Of a stretch of DNA of 10,139 nt, positions 1-10,139 are shown in pieces. Origin of the DNA: Pelagophyceae sp. CCMP2097. Its lineage: Eukaryota; Sar; Pelagophyceae. Position 1 is the stretch's first letter, and every line of letters begins with the position of its first letter. The stretch spans positions 1-10,139 of the forward strand of contig MU657469.1 of the NCBI GenBank assembly GCA_026770575.1, given 5' to 3'. Under the pieces are notes generated by a model. The model saw only the letters and a program-made list of their open reading frames with translations, did no database searches and was not told the DNA's origin. The translations under genes and the position numbers were made by a program.

Positions 1-365
1 CTCGAAGGCCGAAAAAGTCGGATTCAGGGTCCCTACTTCGGATTCTGGGGTACGATTTGACTTAATTTGCTAACGATTTCTTGACGGGGTTAGGGATTTC
101 TATCCTCGGTACTTTCATCTAAGGTTCAGGTTGTTTTTTGCGTTTGTGTGCCCCTCCCTTTGCTGGGTTATGTGTCTTCATGCGGGTTTTCAATTCTCCC
201 GTTTTCCCCATCTGTGCGTCTTCTTGTGTTTTTTTGGGTTTTGGGGTTTGGGTCTTATCGTCTTTTCGGGACCTTGTGGGTTTTTTAAATCCTGTCGTGT
301 TCGGGTTGTGTTCGTTTTGGGTTCATCTTCGGATTGTGTCATTTTCAAACCCGAACACAAAACGA
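1..365. other. Non-viral-looking left flank, probable host or foreign DNA
   Basis: This stretch differs in composition from everything after it: it is richer in G and C, and the + strand is strongly G/T-biased with long T runs and G runs, while the rest is AT-rich with A-rich coding strands. A reading frame starting at 138 is open through it and runs into the helicase frame, but the first 76 or so codons give a Cys/Phe/Val/Gly-rich peptide with no recognisable domain. I therefore treat that part of the frame as chance read-through. The abrupt change next to a virus gene lacking its N-terminus suggests an integration or rearrangement junction around 340-370. An assembly chimera is the alternative. 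I see no gene here. Confidence 0.6.
18..49. repeat. Short tandem duplication, 20-base period
   Basis: The 12-mer TCGGATTCAGGG at 18-29 recurs as TCGGATTCTGGG at 38-49, 11 of 12 bases identical and exactly 20 bases apart. A shorter echo, CTTCGGATT, appears again at 328-336. It lies wholly in the left flank and has no counterpart in the viral part. Confidence 0.5.
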
Positions 366-2150
366 ACTTTACTCGAACACATCAAACATTCCAATATATC
401 TTGTCCTCAATTAGAATATTATATAAATAATCGTGATGACATTCTCAAAAAATTCGAGAATAGAACCGTTGGAAAAATCGCTTATATTTGTTCAACAAAC
501 ACGGACAAAGTTACTCGAAAAACTGGTATGTCAGAGCATTTTAAAAATTACGATAAAGAAATGAAATCAATTCAAAAGGAACTTGTTAACATTGAAAAAT
601 ATAAAGGAATTCTCGAATTGGTATCGTTTGATAAAAAAGATACCAATTATAATGGTTGTGCTGTCAATCGAATTATTTGCCATTATGAGAATATTATTTT
701 GCAGCACATGATTCATGAAATAAATCGACTAGGTATTGAAATTGCAGTTCTTTGTTTTGATGGATTATTAATTTATGGCGATAAATATGAAGATAACCAA
801 TTATTGAGTGATGTTCAAAATTACGTTAATTTAATGATGCCGGACTTGAATATGAAGTTAGCATATAAAAAACATGACGATAAATTATTTGTACCAGATG
901 AATTTGACGAAAATACTCCTGTTTCAAACGAGCGAGAATTTGTTCAGTCCGACTTGGAAGCCACACAAAAATTATTTTCATTATATCCACATTGGAAATA
1001 CTGTCTTGGAAACTTATATGTGTTTGATAGCGGCACGTGGTCAACAGATGTTTCTATAATGAGGAAAATCATAAGCAGTTACAAAAATGTTTTGTGGAAA
1101 AGTGTTTTTGACAAAGAGACTGAAAAATACAAAGCATGCCCAGAAAAATCGTATGGCAATACTTCTGATTTGAAGAATAAAATTCTTATAGAAATGCCAT
1201 CACTCTGTACCGACAACGATTGGATAAAACGTACGGAAAATTCTTCGTTGGGTATGCTTTTGTTTAAAAACGGTTATCTCGATTTTAAGAATTGCCAATT
1301 TTATAAATATCCAGACCATCCATATAACCCAGACATCGTTTTTACGTATACAATGCCACATGATTACGAAGAAGAAACTGACGGGGGGATTTATCGCGCT
1401 TCAATTGAAAAACGATTATTTTACGACCCTTTGGGCAAAGAAGTTGGCGATTGGTTCATATATAATTTGAGCCGCGGTTTGGCTGGGGATGTTATGAAAA
1501 AATGCCTTTTTGCCTTGGGTTTCGGAAATACAGGGAAATCTACTCTTTCGCGTGCTTTATTGATGAGTCTTGGAGGCTACTGCGATAGTTTTAATGCAAA
1601 CAATTTACAATATAAACAGACTGGACAAGACATGGCACAGCAAAATCGATGGATTATGTTGAAAAAAAATATTATTATATCAAACGAAATAAATAGTATA
1701 TCTGCTTTGAACGGAAACGCGATAAAATCGTTATCCTCTGGGGGCGATGTATTGGAAGGGCGAGACCATAATAAAAGTGAAACGACTTTTAAAGTTGAAT
1801 TTTTGACTTTGATATGCGCCAATGATTTGCCAAAAATTAAACCATATGACGATGCTCTGGATAACCGAATAAGGGTAGTATCTTATACAAAAGAATATGT
1901 CGAAAATCCACAGAATGATATTCTTGAATTGAAAGCCGACCCAAGTATAAACGATGAAATCGATTCAGTTCAGTTTCAGAAAACATTTGTGCAATTATTA
2001 ATAAAAAAATATATGCATGGCAAGGACACTCGTGAGTTTGACGATGACCCGAAGGGAGTGGTCCAAGCAAAAGATGACTGGATTGGTGCAGACGTTACAG
2101 TTCTCGACAAATTCTTGGAGGATTTTGAAATTAAATCAAAATGTCAGTGA
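138..2150 (+). CDS. TVpol-like / superfamily 3 helicase replication protein, N-terminally truncated
   Basis: This replication protein would unwind and prime viral DNA in the host nucleus or a virus factory. Recognisable sequence starts near residue 77 (nt 366). Around residues 172-212 is a block resembling the palm of the transposon-virus polymerase (TVpol, PolA-related) found fused to SF3 helicases in virophages and PLVs: a conserved helix followed by VLCFDGLLI, with Asp208 in the metal-binding motif C position. A D5_N-like linker region follows. The SF3 ATPase has Walker A GFGNTGKST (461-469), Walker B-like IIISNE (about 512-517) and a sensor motif with CANDLPKI (about 558-565). Family members are usually 800-1000 residues, so most of the polymerase half is missing. 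Residues 1-76 are probably flank. The frame leaves the family pattern near nt 2125-2145 and stops at 2150, while the C-terminus continues in other frames. The helicase assignment is strong; the TVpol assignment is tentative. Confidence 0.85.
   Translation: MRLCAPPFAGLCVFMRVFNSPVFPICASSCVFLGFGVWVLSSFRDLVGFLNPVVFGLCSFWVHLRIVSFSNPNTKRTLLEHIKHSNISCPQLEYYINNRDDILKKFENRTVGKIAYICSTNTDKVTRKTGMSEHFKNYDKEMKSIQKELVNIEKYKGILELVSFDKKDTNYNGCAVNRIICHYENIILQHMIHEINRLGIEIAVLCFDGLLIYGDKYEDNQLLSDVQNYVNLMMPDLNMKLAYKKHDDKLFVPDEFDENTPVSNEREFVQSDLEATQKLFSLYPHWKYCLGNLYVFDSGTWSTDVSIMRKIISSYKNVLWKSVFDKETEKYKACPEKSYGNTSDLKNKILIEMPSLCTDNDWIKRTENSSLGMLLFKNGYLDFKNCQFYKYPDHPYNPDIVFTYTMPHDYEEETDGGIYRASIEKRLFYDPLGKEVGDWFIYNLSRGLAGDVMKKCLFALGFGNTGKSTLSRALLMSLGGYCDSFNANNLQYKQTGQDMAQQNRWIMLKKNIIISNEINSISALNGNAIKSLSSGGDVLEGRDHNKSETTFKVEFLTLICANDLPKIKPYDDALDNRIRVVSYTKEYVENPQNDILELKADPSINDEIDSVQFQKTFVQLLIKKYMHGKDTREFDDDPKGVVQAKDDWIGADVTVLDKFLEDFEIKSKCQ
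310..367. repeat. Imperfect inverted repeat (hairpin) at the flank/virus boundary
   Basis: GTTCGTTTTGGGTTC at 310-324 and GAACACAAAACGAAC at 353-367 are reverse complements at 14 of 15 positions, with a 28-base spacer. The right arm ends where the recognisable helicase-protein reading begins. It could be a relic of the insertion site, part of a terminal structure, or a chance hairpin in flank DNA. Confidence 0.55.
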
Positions 2151-2377
2151 TTTTGTTTCATCACAGGAAATTGATAATTGGTTGACCGAGAAAAAACTGG
2201 GAATCACGATGAGACGTTTCGGCATGGACATGAAGAAATTCGTTATAAAAAATAAGTAAATTTTTGTCAATAATATCCAAAAAAAAAATTTCTTAAAACA
2301 TACATGTGTGGACTGGTTTGAAATTCGTTCAATCAATCCCCAACGAATACATTGCAGACCCATCCGATGATATGTAA
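2122..2377 (+). pseudogene. Displaced C-terminal tail of the SF3 helicase protein
   Basis: Immediately after the helicase frame breaks, the +1 frame carries a D5-type C-terminal winged-helix-like stretch (SSQEIDNW, then an RRFGMDMKKF segment) as far as a TAA at 2257-2259. A further piece in yet another frame, containing VWTGLKF and ending in TAA at 2375-2377, matches how such helicases normally finish. The tail is therefore spread over at least two more frames with at least two frameshifts and an in-frame stop. The poly-A tract near 2280-2290 is a likely indel site. The continuity of family-like sequence is my reading by eye. There is no start codon that makes this a separate gene. Confidence 0.65.
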
Positions 2378-2447
2378 TTTTATATATTACTTAAAATGAT
2401 GGAACGCGAACATGATATAAGAATAAATATATATTGTTTGATATAGA
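2378..2447 (+). promoter_or_regulatory. AT-rich intergenic region before the recombinase
   Basis: This 70-base gap between the end of the helicase remnant and the ATG at 2448 is very AT-rich, with TATATATTAC and ATAAATATATAT stretches. It is the only place for the recombinase promoter on the + strand. No specific factor site is recognised. Confidence 0.35.
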
Positions 2448-3577
2448 ATGTCGACTAATTTTAAATTACAATTTGAATATGCTAAAATATATAATTCAAG
2501 GCAAAAATCAATTATCCTTCAATTGAATCGTCTTCTGGCTGGCGATTCAGATGAAAACAGAGTCAAAGAAAAAACGATTTTAGACAATGGGTTAGAGTAC
2601 TTGCTCGAATATGCAGAAATACAGAATATAGTCCGTAAAACTGTTGGACGTATTAACAAAGATAAGAAGCAAAAAGTCGGACATGTCAAAAACAATTTTG
2701 AAAAAAAGACCTCATTATGTTTGCAGAGTCATATTATGAAAACATAAATACTAAAAAAAGTTATTTAAATTGTCTTGTAGACAAAGAGGGTCGTCAGTCT
2801 AACATTAAAAATTTGAAAGGAAGTGAACAAAATCAAGATTTTTTTAAGAACATTGAAAATAAAAACAGTCTCAAATTGTTTATCTCGGTATTGTCTTAAT
2901 GTTTACAAGAAAAATAACTATTAGACGATTATCAAGATTTAGTAAAACTAATTCAGAACACTTTTATTGAATTAAATGAAAATGAAATTATCAATCAAAT
3001 TAATAAAAGTCAGGAGAAATTAGTCATTCACTTAGAAGAATTACTACAAATGAAAAATATTTTAGTAGAGTCGGCTCTTAAATTAGAACCAATCTCTGAT
3101 TTTAGAATGTCTCCTTATGAAGTTCTCGATGCCGCCATTTTAGTGACGTTCTATTCGACTTTGGGCTTTAGAGATGACCTTCCAAAAATAATTATCAATC
3201 CGTCTACATTTGATGACACAATGAATTATTACAGTACAGATACTGATACTTTGTTTATTCAGACACACAAAACAAGCAAAAAATATGGAGCAATTATTTT
3301 TAATGTAATCGATGAAAAATTTAAAAGCTTGATTCAAATGTTATTGCTGTACAAACCACGTATGTATCTATTTGACTCGGGTAAGTCATTCAGACTAAAC
3401 CAACATGTTACGAAGGTCATGAAAAAATGTTTTCATAAACATATAACTGTTGACGACATACGAAAAGCACATGTAAGTGCGGCTGTAAATAATTGCCTGG
3501 ATTTTCAAAAAGACCTTGCTTCTAAAATGAAGCACTCGGTATCAACATCGCAAATATTTTATAGACGGAATGATTAA
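2448..3577 (+). pseudogene. Tyrosine recombinase (integrase), broken
   Basis: The C-terminal catalytic part is clear in the frame open from 2918 to 3577. Counting from the internal Met at 3050, it has the first Arg in GFRDD (R41), the beta-hairpin Lys in HKTSKKYG (K74), the second Arg in DIRKAH (R138), a His in KHS (H162) and the nucleophile Tyr in FYRR (Y171). This is the Arg/Lys/Arg/His/Tyr set of the family, though the usual His three residues before the second Arg is Asp. The upstream 2448-2707 frame and the 2709-2896 frame probably encode the N-terminal DNA-binding arm. The reading changes by -1 in the A run at 2701-2707, then meets TAA at 2897-2899 and TAA at 2915-2917 without a frame change. 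A recombinase would integrate the element into host DNA. About 376 codons in all, a normal length. As written, no full enzyme can be made. Confidence 0.82.
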
Positions 3578-3624
3578 ACAAAGTAAAAAAATACCGTCTT
3601 AAAATTAAAATTACCGTGTAAAAT

Positions 3625-3858
3625 TTAATCGAAATAAAGAGTGTGTAATTTTTTCTCAATCGAAAAATCATTTTTCTTCTCAACGATAATTTTTTCTTTT
3701 GATATTCTAACTAATAGTTGAATAATATCATCTGAAAATTTGTCAAATCTTTTCTTAAAATATTCATAGTCATAAAATTCTGTGCTCAAAAACTTCGTCA
3801 TGTCCATTGTATTAGTGGTTTCAGCTGGCATAAATTTGTCATCAATGGATTTGTTCAT
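3625..3858 (-). CDS. Small acidic/charged hypothetical protein
   Basis: A 77-residue frame starting at ATG 3858. A longer frame to 3894 would need a GTG start and would cover the start of the divergent gene. The protein is rich in Asp, Glu, Lys and Phe, with an aromatic cluster FYDYEYFKKRF and a Leu/Ile-rich helix-like stretch followed by a Lys-rich C-terminus. I do not recognise a family. It converges with the recombinase (47-base gap) and diverges from the 3888 gene across 29 bases. That tight placement, with few alternatives on either strand, is the main support that it is real. There is no signal peptide or membrane segment. Confidence 0.5.
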   Translation of the reverse strand: MNKSIDDKFMPAETTNTMDMTKFLSTEFYDYEYFKKRFDKFSDDIIQLLVRISKEKIIVEKKNDFSIEKKLHTLYFD

Positions 3859-3887
3859 ATCTTTAAAATTAAAATAAATTAAACAAT
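3859..3887. promoter_or_regulatory. Compact divergent promoter region
   Basis: Only 29 bases, almost all A and T, separate the ATG of the minus gene (3858) from the ATG of the plus gene (3888). Any promoters for the two must overlap here or lie within the opposing genes. No named motif is seen. Confidence 0.3.
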
Positions 3888-4261
3888 ATGGCACAGATTG
3901 AAAAAACGAAATTGTCTTAAAAAAAATAAAAAAGACAATTGTTGAAGAAGTCCCTGACGAAGTCCCTGATGAGACACCTGATGAGATGATTGCTGATGAA
4001 AATAAGCCACATGTTCGAAAACGACGAACTAATGCTCAGATTGCTTCTGATAATAGGCTTAAAGAAGCAACAAAGGAACGACTTCGATTAAAAAAGGAAC
4101 AACTGATAGTTATGAAAAAACAGGATTCGGATAAGCAGGTTTTAGAAATAGTTGAGAAATTAAAAAGACCAACATTGATTCGACAAAAAGTTTACAAATC
4201 TGATTCATCTGATTCTGATTCCGAACAATATCCGCATCAAATTCCTTTCAGGTTTGTTTAA
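3888..4261 (+). pseudogene. Charged low-complexity protein with PDE repeats, early frameshift
   Basis: From ATG 3888 the frame runs only ten codons before TAA (3918-3920). The -1 frame is open from 3902 to TAA 4259-4261 and carries the recognisable protein, so a frame change in the A run at 3901-3906 is likely. If instead the gene starts at ATG 3986, it is an intact 91-residue protein. Order of parts: an acidic block with three PDE tetrapeptide repeats (3950-3985), a basic RKRRTNAQIA segment followed by a Lys/Arg/Glu-rich helix, then a Ser/Asp run (SDSSDSDSE), ending PFRFV. Similar small charged proteins are common in PLVs and adintovirus-like elements, but I cannot assign a role; nucleic acid or capsid binding is a guess. 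It ends 4 bases from the convergent basic-protein gene. Confidence 0.6.
3950..3985 (+). repeat. Three 12-base tandem repeats encoding VPDE/VPDE/TPDE
   Basis: Units at 3950-3961, 3962-3973 and 3974-3985 each encode a Val/Thr-Pro-Asp-Glu tetrapeptide. They sit just before the in-frame ATG at 3986 and are in frame with the downstream protein, evidence that translation normally began upstream of 3986. Confidence 0.7.
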
Positions 4262-4265
4262 TCAT

Positions 4266-4793
4266 TTAATCCATATCGAAAAGCATATCTTTTTTTACTG
4301 GTCCTCTTCGTTTTGTTCGTTTTACTTCACTTTTATCGGGTTGGGGCATTTTCATCAAATCATTCGCCATTGGATTATAGAATGGTCCAGGCTCGTTTAA
4401 TTCGACATATGGTGAATCATCAAAAATATTCTGGCGAGGCGTCTGAAAAGCAGGCGCGGGCGTCTGAAAAGCAGGCCCAGGCGTCTCAAAAATAGGCGCA
4501 GGTTTCCTGATAGAAGGAATATTTGTTGGCATCTTAATAGCAGGCTTCTCATTATTAGCAATAGAAGGTTTCTGATTAGGATGATATTTATTCACAAAAA
4601 TCTGTTTATGAGTTGTTAATTTTTCATTTAATTTGGTCGGTTTATTGTGAATGACATGATGAATTATTTGAGTTTTACTGATTTTCGGAAAATTGGTTGG
4701 TTGCTTTATTTTGATATTAACTTTCCTAGGTTTATATTTTAAGTTTTTTGTAGTTTTTGGAGTCTTTTTTTTCTTAACAAACGTCTTCTCCAT
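4266..4793 (-). CDS. Basic, proline-rich protein with PAPAFQT heptad repeats
   Basis: An intact 175-residue frame from ATG 4793. The N-terminal two thirds are Lys-rich (KKKKTPKTTK near the start) and mostly disordered-looking. Residues about 97-117 carry three copies of a seven-residue Pro/Ala/Phe/Thr unit. An acidic/aromatic patch follows, then a basic RTKRRGPVKK cluster and an acidic end (DMLFDMD). There is no membrane segment or known enzyme motif. It overlaps the packaging ATPase end by 20 bases and so is probably cotranslated with, or transcribed behind, the ATPase. The charge pattern would suit a DNA-condensing core protein or a capsid-lining protein. That role is inferred from composition and position only. 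Confidence 0.7.
   Translation of the reverse strand: MEKTFVKKKKTPKTTKNLKYKPRKVNIKIKQPTNFPKISKTQIIHHVIHNKPTKLNEKLTTHKQIFVNKYHPNQKPSIANNEKPAIKMPTNIPSIRKPAPIFETPGPAFQTPAPAFQTPRQNIFDDSPYVELNEPGPFYNPMANDLMKMPQPDKSEVKRTKRRGPVKKDMLFDMD
4440..4502 (-). repeat. Three 21-base tandem repeats inside the basic-protein gene
   Basis: Units at 4440-4460, 4461-4481 and 4482-4502 (+ strand CGTCTGAAAAGCAGG...) are nearly identical; the third is the most diverged. Because 21 is a multiple of three, copy number can change without breaking the frame. They encode the Pro-x-Pro-Ala-Phe-Gln-Thr heptads. Confidence 0.85.
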
Positions 4794-5565
4794 TAGATAA
4801 GTTGACTATTTTAATTTGATATAAGTTTCTAAAATATTGTCCTGGAGTCTCATATAAAGTAATAAGGAGAAAGTCTCCTTTTTTTTGATAAACAAAGTAA
4901 TTCAATTGGTTGAACTCATTGTTACTTAAATAACTTAAAAATTCCTGATGCAAAATTTCGCTGCGTCGTGAATTAATCGGTTTGAAAACAATTAAAACAC
5001 TCAAATTTTCACGAAAACATGGACGGAGAAAATACACATCTTGGACTAAAAAAATAAGTGTGGCTTTCAGATGACGTCGAGCAATAACTAATTGGACCAA
5101 TCTTTTCAAAAGCATTTGGTTCCTTAATTTTGAACCAATGTCATCTAAAACGATTAAAGTATCGAGGCCTTCTCTCGAAGTTTCCTCCAAACTGGTTAAG
5201 GTGTAATCTAAAAATTCGTTTGTAAAATCTGTAAATTTTTGTGAGTCTGGCAAACTTTCAAAAGGATTTTTGACCATTGATTTAAGCGTGGATGAGGGGA
5301 TACATGTAATAATTTTATCAAAAACTCTATGATAAATTTTATATTTTTTGCTTTGTAATAATGAGATAAGAGCGCTCGTTTTTCCGCTGCCCGCTGCACC
5401 AGTATACACAATGACAGACGAGGAACTCGGGAAAGGCGTGGATTTTATATAATCTGCTTTTTTATTCGAATTAGTCGATTTGTCATAATATGTAAAATCG
5501 CTATCGACATGTTGTTTTATGACTTCGACGCCGAGGCTTTCATTATTTATCTCTGTTATTTTCAT
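4774..5565 (-). CDS. Genome-packaging ATPase, A32/FtsK-HerA type
   Basis: An intact 263-residue protein, the usual size for PLV, virophage and polinton packaging ATPases. It would use ATP to drive the genome into preformed capsids. Walker A is GAAGSGKT at residues 56-63, Walker B is LIVLDD at 137-142, and the RRHLKATLIFLVQD block at 163-176 matches the conserved Arg-His and sensor Gln region of this family. No membrane segment is seen. Start is ATG 5565, 23 bases inside the upstream small ORF; the 3' end overlaps the basic-protein gene by 20 bases. This tail-to-head overlap on both sides supports the start chosen and coordinated expression with the capsid genes. No frame damage is visible, in contrast to most neighbours. 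Confidence 0.92.
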   Translation of the reverse strand: MKITEINNESLGVEVIKQHVDSDFTYYDKSTNSNKKADYIKSTPFPSSSSVIVYTGAAGSGKTSALISLLQSKKYKIYHRVFDKIITCIPSSTLKSMVKNPFESLPDSQKFTDFTNEFLDYTLTSLEETSREGLDTLIVLDDIGSKLRNQMLLKRLVQLVIARRHLKATLIFLVQDVYFLRPCFRENLSVLIVFKPINSRRSEILHQEFLSYLSNNEFNQLNYFVYQKKGDFLLITLYETPGQYFRNLYQIKIVNLSNGEDVC

Positions 5566-5749
5566 TATTTAATGTTTTTTTTAATTGTATAATTTTAAAA
5601 ATACTTTGTTTTTTATTATTTTTTGAAAACTTGTTATAGTTAAAATAATTGTCAGAAAACTTCATTAATTGTCGTATACTATCAAATAATAAAAAACCAA
5701 TCAATTCATAATGCTTTACATCATTGATAATTAAAAGTACAATTTTCAT
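5543..5749 (-). CDS. Small hypothetical ORF between MCP and ATPase
   Basis: A 68-residue frame from ATG 5749, which lies 18 bases after the MCP stop and overlaps the ATPase start by 23 bases. The first half is hydrophobic and aromatic (IVLLIINDV, LIGFLLFD) and the second half is Asn/Lys-rich, possibly just AT-rich composition. I recognise no family. Its perfect fit in the gap favours a real gene. It could also be the remnant of a larger protein, since this position often holds a protease or minor protein in related elements, but no catalytic motif is visible. Moderate to low confidence that it makes a functional product. Confidence 0.45.
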   Translation of the reverse strand: MKIVLLIINDVKHYELIGFLLFDSIRQLMKFSDNYFNYNKFSKNNKKQSIFKIIQLKKTLNNENNRDK

Positions 5750-5767
5750 TTTTTATTAGAAATATAA

Positions 5768-7042
5768 TTAAATTGAAATCTCGAAATTGCGTGAGCCATC
5801 AATCATGTTGGCAGAAATCATGGCATCATAAGTCATGAAGACTTGCAATTTATAGGGAACTTGTGTCGCGGTTATAAATTCAAGTTGTAACTGTGTAACG
5901 GTTGAAGACAGGTCCATACCACTACGGATTGATTCAGAACGATTTGCTTCACTGTCCAAATCGAAACTCATAATATACCCCGCGTCGGAGTATCGAGGCG
6001 AATTATCGAGGCCTGGAATACTTAGGTCTGACAGGCAATGTTGTGTCAACCTGGAATGAGTTTTCTGTACGGCTGGGTCACAATCGATACCGCCTGACAA
6101 TAAAATCTGTTGACCATCAATAAATAGAATAACAATTTTAAGATTAGCTCGTACATAATCGAATTTGGCAGTCCCTGGTGTTGGAACTGTTGATAATGAA
6201 AAATATATGGCATTTGCCGATGAATACGATCACCCGATATTAAATGTGCTTATGTTTGTCAATGCAGGAATTGAAGACTGATAAAATCCTGTATTATTCG
6301 ACAGAAATTTAAAAACACCATCATGGGACATCATAAGACCGTCCGGATTTTGTGAATGAGCCTGAGCAGCGACGTTGGCATTCGTCTCGTTGGTCCCTTT
6401 CGCTGCTATTGAATCCTGCATATCGAAACGAGGGGCACTTGTACCCAAATTTTTGTTTAGGACATCGCCATTTGTTTGGACGTATTCCTGATTCGAGGTT
6501 ATATCGCCAAGGGCTATATCGATTTGAAGTGAGTCGGATGTTCCCAGTGTGATATACTTGTTATTCGCAAACATTGACGAATCAAGATGTGACAACGGGT
6601 CGGTGAATGTGACAGATTCACCGGCGTCCATAAATCGACCACTTAAATGGTCAAACATACCATGCACAACCGCACCGTCTTTTAACATGTACTCTTTTGG
6701 GACTTGCAATTTGGTAAACATGGTTCTATAATTGGCGTAGTTTGATATAGAAGACAACACATTACCCTGTTGTCTCAATGTCACTTCACTGAAAAATGCT
6801 GCAGCCCCGGCAACAGAACTAATCTGTGCCGCCACCGACGATTTGACTGTAAATTTAATGTAAGAATTTGCCGGGTCGAAATATGCTCCGCTTCGGTTGC
6901 TTGGGAGTTAAAAACGAACTCGTTCACCCGCACGAGCCGAAGAGCCACTGATGGGAGTGATTCGAGAATAAACTAGTCTTACGGGCGCACTACGAGGCTT
7001 ATTTTCTGATTGGAAACGTTGTGATATTACTGTGTCTTTCAT
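5768..7042 (-). pseudogene. Major capsid protein, double jelly-roll type, with two in-frame stops
   Basis: One frame of 425 codons runs from ATG 7042 to TAA 5768-5770 and is interrupted only by TAA at 6910-6908 (codon 45) and TGA at 6232-6230 (codon 271). There is no frameshift. The segment after the first stop has SGAYFDPANSYIKF, the N-terminal strand pattern typical of PLV/adintovirus-type hexon proteins. The C-terminal third has an RSESIRSGMDLSS block, then a hydrophobic strand pair around VFMTYDAM, as expected for the second jelly roll. Size fits the family (about 400-600 residues). The product would form the pseudohexameric capsomers. It sits between the penton candidate and the ATPase, the normal morphogenesis neighbourhood. 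As written, only short pieces could be translated. Family assignment is by pattern, without alignment. Confidence 0.8.
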
Positions 7043-7087
7043 TATTACATATAAGATTTTATTATTTATAATATTTTTTTTAAATTT
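7043..7087 (-). promoter_or_regulatory. AT-rich leader upstream of the MCP
   Basis: The 45-base gap between the penton-candidate stop and the MCP ATG is nearly all A/T and carries TGTAATAAT (minus strand, 7049-7041), overlapping the first base pairs of the ATG. The same nine bases stand just before the 7914 gene. It is the largest gap in the minus-strand capsid run and a likely place for an MCP promoter. Confidence 0.35.
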
Positions 7088-7540
7088 TTATAATTCTGTT
7101 TCGTAATTGATTTGTAATATTATCTGACAATCGTGGTCAGGTATTTTATTGGTAAAAAAAATTAGTTTAAACCGAATAATTCTTGGTAATTCACTAATAA
7201 CATAGGTAGGCGAATTCCCATTATAACAACTTAATTTATCAATCTGAATTAATTGAGTCAGGATTATATCTCGTGATCCACTCAATGATTTAAAATTTTG
7301 ACAATTTAAAGAATCGCATGATAAGGTGTTATAAACTTCACCAGAAACAATTGGTCCAGTGGTATTTTGAATTTATTGGATAATCATAGAATGCAATTTA
7401 ATTGTTATTTTTGTATTATTTGGAGTTCGTCTCAGGGATTGAAAACAATCAGTTGATAAATTAAATTCGAATATGTTTGTTGAAGGAGACCCTCCCCCTG
7501 AGCGCAAATCAAAACTTATGTAGTCTGTTTTTTTCTCCAT
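7088..7540 (-). pseudogene. Penton / minor capsid protein candidate, one in-frame stop
   Basis: One frame of 151 codons from ATG 7540 to TAA 7090-7088, broken only by TAA at 7375-7373 (codon 56). Size and alternating hydrophobic pattern suggest a beta-rich protein: strands around NIFEFNLS, TKITIKLH, RIIRFKLIFF and CQIILQINYE. That fits a single jelly roll, and its place immediately upstream of the MCP is where the penton (minor capsid) gene is usually found in PLVs and polintons. It begins 5 bases after the stop of the pVI-like gene. I see no diagnostic motif, so 'penton' is inference from position, length and strand pattern. A shorter translation starting at the TTG at 7285 would lack the N-terminal third. 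Confidence 0.55.
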
Positions 7541-7545
7541 ATATA

Positions 7546-7914
7546 TTAACCATATTTATTAATTTTAATATCTTTTTGAGTATCAATTACAGTTTTTTCC
7601 AAACTTTCAATAGCCCTGTTATATTTTCCTTTTTTATAGGCGCGACTGGAATCACTCAATCCCTGTGCGGTATTGCCGGACGCTCGGAGTGCAAAACTGG
7701 CGGCGGCAAGGGGGGCAGATAACTCAGGCTGGCCTACTAATAGCAATAGAGACGATGCCGTTCCCCCGATTTTTGAGGCTTTATTTAAATAATTGCTGGT
7801 ATTTTCTAAAATGCTCGGGAGTTTGTTCGCTATACCACGAGCAACATGTGTGCTTTTCATTGAAAGAGAACGAAAAAGTCTATTAGATTTTTTACCAATT
7901 GATTTAACTCCCAT
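7546..7914 (-). CDS. Small basic protein with hydrophobic core, pVI-like candidate
   Basis: An intact 122-residue frame from ATG 7914, placed 4 bases after the upstream stop and 5 bases before the next start. The N-terminus is basic (MGVKSIGKKSNRLF), followed by an amphipathic region. A Gly/Ala/Leu-rich stretch at about residues 49-80 contains SSLLLLVG and APLAAASFALRASG, then comes a Lys/Asp-rich tail. PLVs and adenovirus-like elements often encode a protein of this size and build beside the capsid genes, sometimes compared with adenovirus pVI, a membrane-active internal capsid protein. The comparison rests on size, charge and hydrophobicity, not on a motif. A peripheral or transmembrane role is possible. 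No damage is seen. Confidence 0.6.
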   Translation of the reverse strand: MGVKSIGKKSNRLFRSLSMKSTHVARGIANKLPSILENTSNYLNKASKIGGTASSLLLLVGQPELSAPLAAASFALRASGNTAQGLSDSSRAYKKGKYNRAIESLEKTVIDTQKDIKINKYG

Positions 7915-7918
7915 ATTA

Positions 7919-8780
7919 TTACAAATAAAAATTATTGATTTTGTTTTTAATGTTTTCGTTTCGTAAAAATATTTTTTTTAACTCACTGTCAGTAAAAATG
8001 TAGTTAATAGAATGTGTTCGTTTAAAAAGATTAAATCTAAGTTGTTGGAGTTCTTTGGCATTTAATAAAATACTGACATTTTTATTCGCAACAACTTTCA
8101 TGTATGTAATTTGTTTATTAACAATCGATTGATTTAAAGGTTCATTCGTATCGGTTTCAATTGGTGTAAAAACTAATTCTATAGTCATACTCCATTTGTT
8201 TTTCATTAAAATGTCTTTGTTTGCATCATTTAAAAGCCTTAGCGTAAACGAATTTAAAAGTTTCTCGTTTATAATAGATTTTCGATTATTTTCGTTTTGA
8301 TAAATTACATAAAACCCGAATTCAGATTTTATTGGTATTTTACCAATTTTCGAGATGTTTATATTATCAGAGTCTGGATTTATATTATTTGTTTTAAGTT
8401 CCAAAAACATGACATTAATATATTGAATATTTTGGTATATATCAATTGGTTGACTTGATATTAAAATTACATCATCGATTGTTTTTGCAAGTTTTAAAAA
8501 ATCATTAAAAAATCTCCTATTAATTTAACTGGAATATCTGACTCTATTTTAAATTTCAAACTAATTCTGTTAAAACTCAAAATTATATTTATCTCATTTA
8601 ATAACTTAAATTTCTTATTCACATAGTCAACTATATCACGCACTGCATAAATCCTTCGTCAAATATGACATCCCGTGTGACTTCCGTACCACCGAATAGA
8701 CTAAATTTTATTTGATTTTTTAAATAATTTGATTCAATATTATAAATGGAGTTTAATGTGGAAAAATCGGTTATTGCCAT
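7919..8780 (-). pseudogene. Virion-associated protein of unknown class, split over three frames
   Basis: The obvious frame (8410-7919, 163 residues) is only the C-terminal part. Upstream, coherent coding continues from ATG 8780 in one frame (starting MAITDFSTLNSIYN) to about 8645, in a second frame from there to about 8510, and then in the third frame through the 8410 Met to TAA 7921-7919. About 286 codons in total. The frame changes lie near 8641-8655 and in the A/T runs near 8496-8516. The C-terminal part has LLNSFTLRLLND and WSMTIELVFTPIE, the strand pattern of a beta-rich capsid-type protein. The first 40 or so codons follow directly (10 bases) on the preceding minus gene. I cannot name the family. 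Position in the capsid run suggests a structural role. Confidence 0.6.
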
Positions 8781-8790
8781 CGAACAAGAA

Positions 8791-9105
8791 TTATTTTTTT
8801 AAATTTATTGTTTCACTCAAATCGTAAAAATATGTTCCGTTTAGTTCATCATAGATTGAATTACTATTGTTTAAATTGATATTTACAATTGTAGTCACAT
8901 AATAAATATATAAAAAATATTAAAAATAAATTGTTCGATTCGATTGGTATTTAAAATAGTTTGATGGATTCGCACGATTCATCATGACTTGTTTTAATGG
9001 TTTAAAATCACTCGTTCTATATTCACGTTTAGTATATTGTAGAGCCGCTTTCAAGTATGCTTTTTTTCTGCCTTTTTTGAATTGATTAATAACAAATCCA
9101 TAATT
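8791..9105 (-). pseudogene. Small hypothetical gene with lost start and one in-frame stop
   Basis: A frame open from 9105 (after a TAA at 9108-9106) reads to TAA 8793-8791 with one internal TAA at 8922-8920. The only ATG near the front (9101-9099) is in another frame, so the start is damaged or lies at the later ATG pair 8985-8980. The N-terminal half is basic (FKKGRKKAYLKAALQ, then an Arg/Lys/Asn-rich stretch). The part around the stop is aromatic and hydrophobic, and the end contains GTYFYDLSE. It stops 10 bases before the next minus gene, in keeping with the compact run. No family recognised. The support is frame continuity and spacing. Confidence 0.45.
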
Positions 9106-9146
9106 TTAATAATATTATTTTTGATTATTATTTTTTAAATAATAAT
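9106..9146. promoter_or_regulatory. AT-only divergent region
   Basis: Between the minus gene front (about 9105) and the plus ATG at 9147 lie 41 bases of nearly pure A/T with AATAAT and ATTATT blocks in both orientations, a partly palindromic arrangement. It is probably the divergent promoter of the two small genes. No specific factor site is seen. Confidence 0.3.
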
Positions 9147-9344
9147 ATGGAATCTGTCTTTTTAAATAATAACAACCAGCCTCATATCTACATTATCATT
9201 ATATCACTATTTATTGGATGCTATTGGAAAACAGTTTAATTATTTGTTATTTCGAGAATTTCGCATTTGGAAGTCGGCTGTTTAAAAGTCGATAATAATC
9301 CTATTATTGTCACCGAAACCGTTTTGGTAACACGTAACAATTAA
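9147..9344 (+). pseudogene. Tiny membrane-segment protein, one in-frame stop
   Basis: ATG 9147 opens a 66-codon frame ending in TAA 9342-9344, interrupted by TAA at 9237-9239 (codon 31). The first part encodes an Asn-rich N-terminus and a hydrophobic helix (IYIIIISLFIGCYW), long enough for a membrane span. After the stop the same frame goes on with an ordinary-looking hydrophilic domain to the final stop. That final TAA overlaps the stop of the convergent minus gene by two bases, which is how compact viral genes end and argues that the original gene extended to 9344. With the stop, a 30-residue peptide could still be made. Function unknown. Confidence 0.45.
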
Positions 9345-10139
9345 ACCAATTCATACACATAAACACAAAACTTCGCATCTGCAATACTATTATTCGTATC
9401 ACGAGTTATTACTCTGAAGCCCTTGGCTCCCACAATACCGCTTTGTAACCCATTGCTTGAAAATTGGTTGTTTACCCCATATTGGTCGATTTGATTAAAT
9501 CCTGCTGATATGTTTTCCATAAGATTTGCATTTATTATCATATTGCCTGTCACTCCTGGTGTAGAAAATGTTATGATATACACTCCACGCGTGTCGTTTG
9601 GGCTCCGTTTGTCAGTACAATTACTTCCATATAAAAATTCGCCATTACGAGAGACCGTCGCACAACATTTAAATTGAACGTTGGAATTTGATTTTGAAAG
9701 GTATGCCGTAGGAACTCCGTTCGCATCGTTGGCGCTTATCATAGTAAAATCGGCAACTGCAAAATTGATATTAAAATCAGGTACGTTATACTTAGCATTT
9801 TTAAAGTGGCTCACTACATTATTAATTACTTTGGTTATGGAATAGTCGACTGCCTTGAAAGTCGTCGTTGAAGCCGCTTCTATGCCACTATCAACAAAAA
9901 CAAGGGCATTTTTCATTGTAGCGATAATTTGATTGGGAATATCTGCTTTTTTATATCCATCTGTGAAAATTGTAAATTTAGAACCGGTGGTATCGACTGA
10001 TGTAGAACTTGATGACCCCGCCGCGTCTGTTATTGTCACTGGGACATTCGGCGATAAATTTGATATAACCCCCGAAGAATCGACCGATATATTACTTCCT
10101 CCGGTATAGAGTAACGATTTAATTGAAAATGAGGGATAA
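9341..10139 (-). CDS. Fibre-like surface protein, 5' end outside the window
   Basis: The frame is open from the window edge (first full codon 10138-10136) to TAA 9343-9341, 265 residues. The GTG at 10039 is not needed as a start, because coding runs on upstream. The N-terminal visible part is Ser/Gly/Thr/Asp-rich with a GGSNISVDSSGVISN pattern like the shaft repeats of fibres and tail spikes. It then passes to a globular-looking C-terminal domain rich in Asn, Phe and Val, with GVYIITFSTPGVTG and a strongly hydrophobic final strand FCVYVYEL. This build (shaft plus terminal head) suggests a host-attachment fibre or spike; C1q/TNF-like heads end similarly. No enzyme motif. Base use is less AT-rich than in the neighbours. 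Function is inference from architecture. Confidence 0.6.
   Translation of the reverse strand, partial: YPSFSIKSLLYTGGSNISVDSSGVISNLSPNVPVTITDAAGSSSSTSVDTTGSKFTIFTDGYKKADIPNQIIATMKNALVFVDSGIEAASTTTFKAVDYSITKVINNVVSHFKNAKYNVPDFNINFAVADFTMISANDANGVPTAYLSKSNSNVQFKCCATVSRNGEFLYGSNCTDKRSPNDTRGVYIITFSTPGVTGNMIINANLMENISAGFNQIDQYGVNNQFSSNGLQSGIVGAKGFRVITRDTNNSIADAKFCVYVYELV

Follow-up and report, generated by a model that had tools for sequence, protein, structure and literature searches.

Introduction

Polinton-like viruses (PLVs) are usually ~14-40 kb long and carry terminal inverted repeats (TIRs). A TVpol-SF3 or primase-SF3 replicase is common, though not universal, among them, and in some PLVs a tyrosine recombinase replaces the rve integrase. 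Here we analyze contig MU657469.1 of Pelagophyceae sp. CCMP2097 (assembly GCA_026770575.1), a 10,139-bp stretch that we call the window (C286 in our numbering). The window is one entire contig of an assembly of 66,184,329 bases in 638 contigs, and it is an incomplete PLV from ~392 to the contig end, probably part of a small DNA virus that was inserted in a protist chromosome and later disabled by mutations.

The closest described systems are endogenous PLVs of other protists. Bellas et al. (2023; PMC10120064) describe protist genomes with many divergent endogenous PLVs, from tens to thousands, with stops in many copies, and sort the PLVs into 73 clusters. The GC content of these PLVs is often unlike that of the host, TIRs occur in about half, and the major capsid protein (MCP) gene is accompanied by helicase and recombinase genes. 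In cluster C1 of the cryptophyte PLVs, a tyrosine recombinase is the representative integrase and TVpol-S3H is dominant in one species; fibre proteins also occur in PLVs (PMC12220804). Endogenized PLVs of Oxyrrhis marina carry a tyrosine recombinase and TIRs (PMC12721341). Both Bellas et al. and Hackl et al. (PMC8547959) found false stops in assemblies of such elements. Whether broken genes reflect real decay or assembly error is left open in these two papers, and gene fragmentation in O. marina is taken as ongoing decay (PMC12721341).

Genes of a polinton-like virus with two near copies in the same genome

We think it quite likely that a PLV lineage entered this nuclear genome more than once and that the window is part of one copy, which decayed without selection. 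We favor this reading because the window holds PLV-type genes, two near copies lie on other contigs, lesions differ in part from copy to copy, and the ratio of nonsynonymous to synonymous divergence (dN/dS) is low. The principal genes are as follows.

392..2259, plus strand: helicase-primase (SF3/D5-type; probable TVpol-SF3 fusion), 5′ truncated, with a frameshift near 2131; matches Pfam DUF5906 and PHROGs primases
2448..3577, plus strand: probable tyrosine recombinase, broken by a frameshift near 2704 and stops at 2897-2899 and 2915-2917; an open homologue is L008
4774..5565, minus strand: A32-type packaging ATPase, open; matches Pfam Pox_A32
5768..7042, minus strand: predicted double-jelly-roll MCP, broken by stops at 6230-6232 and 6908-6910 and by a 66-bp in-frame deletion at 6332
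9341..10139, minus strand: fibre-like gene, open, running off the contig

The helicase matched Pfam DUF5906 at E 9e-7 and PHROG primase families at E values down to 9.5e-18. In the protein database it has 371 relatives at E ≤ 1e-6, and many of the 120 listed are 720-870 aa long. Its missing 5′ part is present in C287, one of the two near copies. The polymerase part of the replicase was found only in C287 and in the database relatives, where profile scans gave no polymerase match; from motifs, the replicase is probably of the TVpol type. Matches in the phage collection were limited to 37 records of distant phage primases, each covering less than 80%, a PDB sequence search gave no match, and pattern-limited IMG/VR scans with the helicase and with a helicase alignment found no relatives. 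One database relative, P0041, carries an N-terminal AEP_C962R primase domain. Therefore, similar SF3 helicases are joined to differing polymerase or primase parts.

Alignment of the recombinase with its open homologue (alignment A4) revealed the pattern R..HKxxK..IRKxH..H..Y, which we take to be that of a tyrosine recombinase. The homologue L008 has an open 406-aa frame, or 372 aa counted from its ATG. No Pfam, PHROGs or NCBIfam profile matched the recombinase, and its structure model was poor (pLDDT 43), making the fold search uninformative. An earlier note on this DNA, made from the letters alone, had placed an SF3 helicase, a tyrosine recombinase, an A32-type ATPase and a capsid protein together. 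The helicase, ATPase and MCP hold up, and the recombinase is recognized only by the residue pattern. No pPolB or rve integrase matched among the ORFs scanned against Pfam, a scan that left two small ORFs near 9 kb outside, and no virophage-type cysteine protease matched in the ORFs scanned; the ends of the element, where such genes could also lie, are absent from the window.

The ATPase matched Pfam Pox_A32 at E 1.7e-9 (38 bits; cut-off 22.8) and has nine protein-database relatives at E ≤ 1e-5. It had no match in the phage collection and none in a PDB sequence search, and a pattern-limited IMG/VR scan with one of its database relatives found no relatives.

The window MCP had no Pfam match. Open MCP homologues of 411-421 aa lie beside the ATPase gene in other contigs, and one of these, L015, is 39-42% identical to the pieces of the window MCP. 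Although the structure model of L015 is of low confidence (pLDDT 52; fold-match TM ~0.3), Foldseek searches of PDB with this model gave a best E of 1.5e-10, and all 50 listed matches were capsid or D13-type scaffold proteins, including those of chlorovirus PBCV-1, an iridovirus and faustovirus, the mavirus MCP, and the poxvirus D13 scaffold. Against BFVD, the best E was 4.4e-14; at least 23 of the 50 listed matches were named as capsid or coat proteins, and the others were mostly unnamed or uncharacterized. The modeled fold thus points to a double-jelly-roll MCP as the product of the 5768..7042 gene. Only two protein-database relatives, both unnamed, reached E ≤ 0.001 among the 7996 candidates scored. 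A PDB sequence search with an MCP homologue gave no match, and an IMG/VR scan with an MCP alignment, again pattern-limited, found no relatives.

The window is AT-rich (22-46% GC in 300-bp steps), and host-like stretches adjoining related copies in contigs C300 and C207 have 65-73% GC. Together with inverted repeat pairs in relatives (see below), these features support the earlier note's description of a partly decayed, probably endogenous PLV. Its proposed extent, 366..9344, needed correction, as viral homology starts at ~392-398 and runs to the contig end at 10139. A tRNA search found no tRNA genes.

ATPase-family matches at E ≤ 0.001 numbered 145, on 101 of the 638 contigs, with identities to the window ATPase of 26-100%, and MCP matches were present at further places in the same genome. 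From these matches, this one 66-Mb genome appears to hold many divergent PLV lineages. Stop-free relatives were found among both families: 12 of the 36 ATPase matches that span at least 224 of 263 residues, and 5 of the 12 MCP matches that span at least 357 of 420 residues (hand counts; both sets omit shorter matches, and hence frameshifted copies that are split into pieces). The near copies of the window, which serve for comparison below, are C300 and C287, both ~95% identical to it.

Substitutions between the copies

We compared the three copies over 2,414-2,885 codons, omitting codons with gaps, inserts or stops (dS 0.10-0.15). The dN/dS was 0.24 between the window and C300, 0.34 between the window and C287, and 0.27 between C300 and C287. 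In 11 control pairs of open ATPase or MCP frames with dS above 0.5, dN/dS was 0.06-0.11 (pairs with dS ≥ 1 were left out). By this comparison, most of the divergence between the copies seems to be older than their decay.

Assuming a dN/dS of 0.08 under constraint, the unselected share of the divergence would be 0.021-0.031 per pair and 0.010-0.018 per branch, where branch counts use the codons at which the other two copies agree. The examined segments of the window contain five nonsense codons (at 2897, 2915, 6230, 6908 and 7373); an unselected share of 0.011 would lead to an expectation of 3.4-4.9. These figures agree with decay that is real, recent and random.

Lesions in the window

Fourteen lesions, comprising in-frame stops, single-base frameshifts and the 66-bp deletion, lie in eight genes of the window, in addition to the 5′ truncation of the helicase. 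The earlier note had also counted eight broken genes, and these are the helicase, the recombinase, the basic gene at 3.9-4.26 kb, the MCP, and the genes at 7.09-7.54 kb, 7.92-8.9 kb, ~9.0 kb and 9.15-9.24 kb. Ten of the 14 lesions are seen in neither near copy. The window has the frame breaks near 2704, 3911 and 8511 in common with C300, and the one near 9072 in common with C287; all of these shared breaks are in or near short A or T runs. The 66-bp deletion in the MCP gene removes a segment that is kept in C300, C287 and homologues. C300 has its own losses, at 396-1176, ~5070-5534 and ~7834-7879 in window coordinates.

If the copy is intact in the cell, the stops and frameshifts would be consensus errors that arose from collapsing many similar copies during assembly. 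The false stops in published PLV and virophage assemblies (PMC10120064, PMC8547959) speak for such an artefact and against decay, as does the finding that several window lesions, including the breaks shared with C300, are single-base changes within or beside short runs of A or T. However, consensus errors would not be expected to take the form of nonsense substitutions, of the 66-bp deletion or of the larger C300 losses; such deletions and nonsense changes favour real decay. The substitutions by themselves also suggest relaxed constraint. Although a random substitution error of 1% in the assembly would mimic these figures, it would then be hard to explain why 12 of the 36 near full-length ATPases in this assembly are stop-free. 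We consider an assembly artefact unlikely.

The remaining ORFs of the viral part are listed here.

3625..3861, minus strand: small 78-aa ORF, stop-free in all three copies, although C287 lacks its first ATG
3888..4261, plus strand: small basic protein gene with a frame break near 3911; start ambiguous
4266..4793, minus strand: basic, proline-rich 175-aa ORF, open in the window, frameshifted in C300 and C287
5543..5749, minus strand: 68-aa ORF between the ATPase and MCP genes, open; C300 and four other loci have similar ORFs next to their ATPase
7088..7540, minus strand: ORF interrupted by an in-frame stop (7373-7375); C287 has this frame open
7546..7914, minus strand: 122-aa ORF named pVI-like in the earlier note; open in the window and C287, broken in C300
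7919..8907, minus strand: penton or minor-capsid candidate, by position only; frameshifts near 8511, 8648 and 8791
8923..9101, minus strand: small basic ORF, frame broken near 9072
9147..9239, plus strand: small hydrophobic ORF cut by a stop at 9237-9239; this stop is absent from C300 and C287

If the small basic gene at 3.9 kb is read from its internal ATG at 3986, an open frame of 91 aa remains. No Pfam or PHROGs match backs the pVI-like label of the 7546..7914 ORF. For the penton or minor-capsid candidate, nothing better than E 0.19 was found with the window part against PHROGs and the C300 part against Pfam (window positions 7922-8410 were scanned against PHROGs only). In C287, the fibre-like gene (L055) continues with imperfect tandem repeats after the equivalent of window position 10139. 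ORFs near two related ATPase genes (L033:19-699 and L034:366-1205) have weak Pfam matches to lipase/cutinase-like (alpha/beta hydrolase) families, with best E values of 0.00036 and 0.0016, under the curated cut-offs.

No support for retention of the open genes

As the earlier note had stated, the frames of the ATPase, pVI-like, basic (175-aa) and fibre genes are open in the window; the small minus-strand ORFs at 3628-3861 and 5546-5749 are open as well. It had gone on to propose that this mosaic is a natural record of which viral genes stay open after insertion. One form of this idea is that these four genes are kept open because they serve the host. In its favor, none of the four carries a lesion in the window, and 14 randomly placed lesions spared all of them in only 1.4% of trials, a figure that applies to a set picked after it had been seen. 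In contrast, each of the four has lost its open frame in at least one of the other copies. C287 carries a broken ATPase and C300 a partly deleted one, both have a broken 175-aa basic gene, and C300 has breaks in its pVI-like and fibre genes, which in C287 are open as far as they can be read.

The number of genes hit is also that of chance, as a random throw of 14 lesions over 14 genes is expected to strike 7.8 of them, compared to the 8 observed. Comparison of dN/dS with related copies, a check that the earlier note had suggested, gave 0.59 for the open genes and 0.29 for the broken genes on the window branch (Fisher p 0.15). The genes open in the window are not more constrained than the broken ones, and retention is not supported; upkeep of these genes by the host is most improbable. 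Which genes look unbroken varies from copy to copy and is mostly ordinary decay. Thus, the pattern of open genes in one copy should not be taken as retention.

The left junction and the relation of the window to C300

Two repeats lie to the left of the viral part.

1..40, no strand assigned: dispersed short repeat with which the contig begins; matched within 1-44 only at 15 further places in the genome, with 90-100% identity (hand count)
41..391, minus strand: ~350-bp repeat unit whose end abuts the truncated viral helicase

Positions 1-391 contain no viral gene. The first 40 positions, where C300 differs from the window, may be an unreliable contig tip. Copies of the 350-bp unit are present in C300 (from 9075; 95% identical) and in C77, C189, C195 and C25 (77-85%), and 7 of the 10 contigs that carry the unit also have ATPase or MCP matches (hand count). 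The unit might indicate a site favored for insertion, or a former end of the virus.

Homology between the window and C287 starts at window positions 392-398, inside the helicase gene, and C287 carries more of this gene upstream. A repeat that neighbours the 350-bp unit forms inverted pairs around ATPase/MCP matches in C132 (11.7 kb), C349 (14.9 kb) and C189 (10.8 kb), and these pairs look like TIRs. The matching left piece of the inverted repeat is at 48341-48575 in C287, where the element is at least 12.7 kb long. Positions 41-391 could also be taken for a terminal repeat of the virus itself, a reading that we rejected since most inverted pairs begin further in and the tip of the unit faces the viral body.

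On the left, the window and C300 have homologous truncated junctions, in which they share the 350-bp unit (334 of 350 bases) and six further bases before the virus. Since they also share the frame breaks near 2704, 3911 and 8511, the two may descend from one insertion that was already broken, as duplicates or alleles. The divergence of the repeat unit (4.6%), which is near the non-coding divergence of the body (6.6%), agrees with this origin. However, descent from one broken insertion predicts a dN/dS near 1, and the measured 0.24 suggests otherwise. In addition, the sequences left of position 41 differ, though the first 40 bases of the window may be a chimeric tip, and the shared breaks fall within or beside short stretches of A or T, sites at which slippage or errors happen repeatedly. 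Recombination between copies could account for the conflict between junction and dN/dS, as could a chimeric tip of the contig, recurrent slippage or error in A/T runs, or a truncated element that was still moving. We give somewhat less than even chances to the window and C300 being duplicates or alleles that go back to a single truncated insertion, which would be compatible with a lineage that entered the genome more than once. A further explanation is that the truncated, repeat-joined form spread on under selection as a helper-dependent derivative, after losing the polymerase part and before the copies died. Such a derivative would explain both the shared truncated junction and the dN/dS of 0.24, but we regard it as very doubtful.

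Besides this conflict, several observations weigh against repeated entry of a lineage followed by unselected decay. At low divergence dN/dS is noisy, as seven control pairs at dS below 0.35 span 0.07-0.51, and each of these seven pairs includes a copy with a stop in the ATPase or MCP. The window has no TIR pair and no host gene on either side, so insertion is not seen directly. Moreover, all three near copies stop at a contig edge, either inside the fibre gene or at most 812 bases past the part present in the window.

Discussion

Together, our results are best accommodated by a model in which a PLV lineage entered the genome repeatedly. In this lineage, the helicase-polymerase would have served replication and the tyrosine recombinase integration, and the ATPase, capsid proteins and fibre would have made the virion. 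Variants would have diverged while functional, reaching synonymous distances of 0.10-0.15, and would then have been fixed as insertions. After insertion, decay without selection may have amounted to ~1-2% per copy, through frameshifts, nonsense changes and deletions that struck the genes randomly. For C287, a separate insertion is the best reading, and the window and C300 may share one. The genes still open in the window would reflect chance and recency, not upkeep by the host.

Elements of this kind are already in print, as are multi-copy PLVs of protists, false stops, TVpol-SF3 replicases, tyrosine recombinases and decay; the useful part of our work is the analysis of selection at the level of copies. 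Sister copies in one genome allow the question of decay to be put in numbers, since patterns of substitution, beyond the stops themselves, point to a period of selection followed by a short unselected phase.

How does this element compare with known systems? Like the endogenous PLVs of other protists (PMC10120064), it belongs to a genome with many divergent copies, its GC content is unlike that of the host, MCP, helicase and probable recombinase genes occur together, and stops are present. It is unlike them in its MCP, which is ~420-430 aa long and matches two proteins at E ≤ 0.001 among 7996 scored. The probable tyrosine recombinase, the TVpol-type label and the fibre recall cryptophyte cluster C1 (PMC12220804), a likeness by description only, whereas the GC-rich flanks found here set it apart from that cluster. 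It resembles the PLVs of O. marina (PMC12721341) in its tyrosine recombinase (probable here), in the TIR-like inverted repeats of related loci and in its fragmented genes. In contrast to the SF1 helicase-PolB fusion of those viruses, the replicase described here carries an SF3-type helicase.

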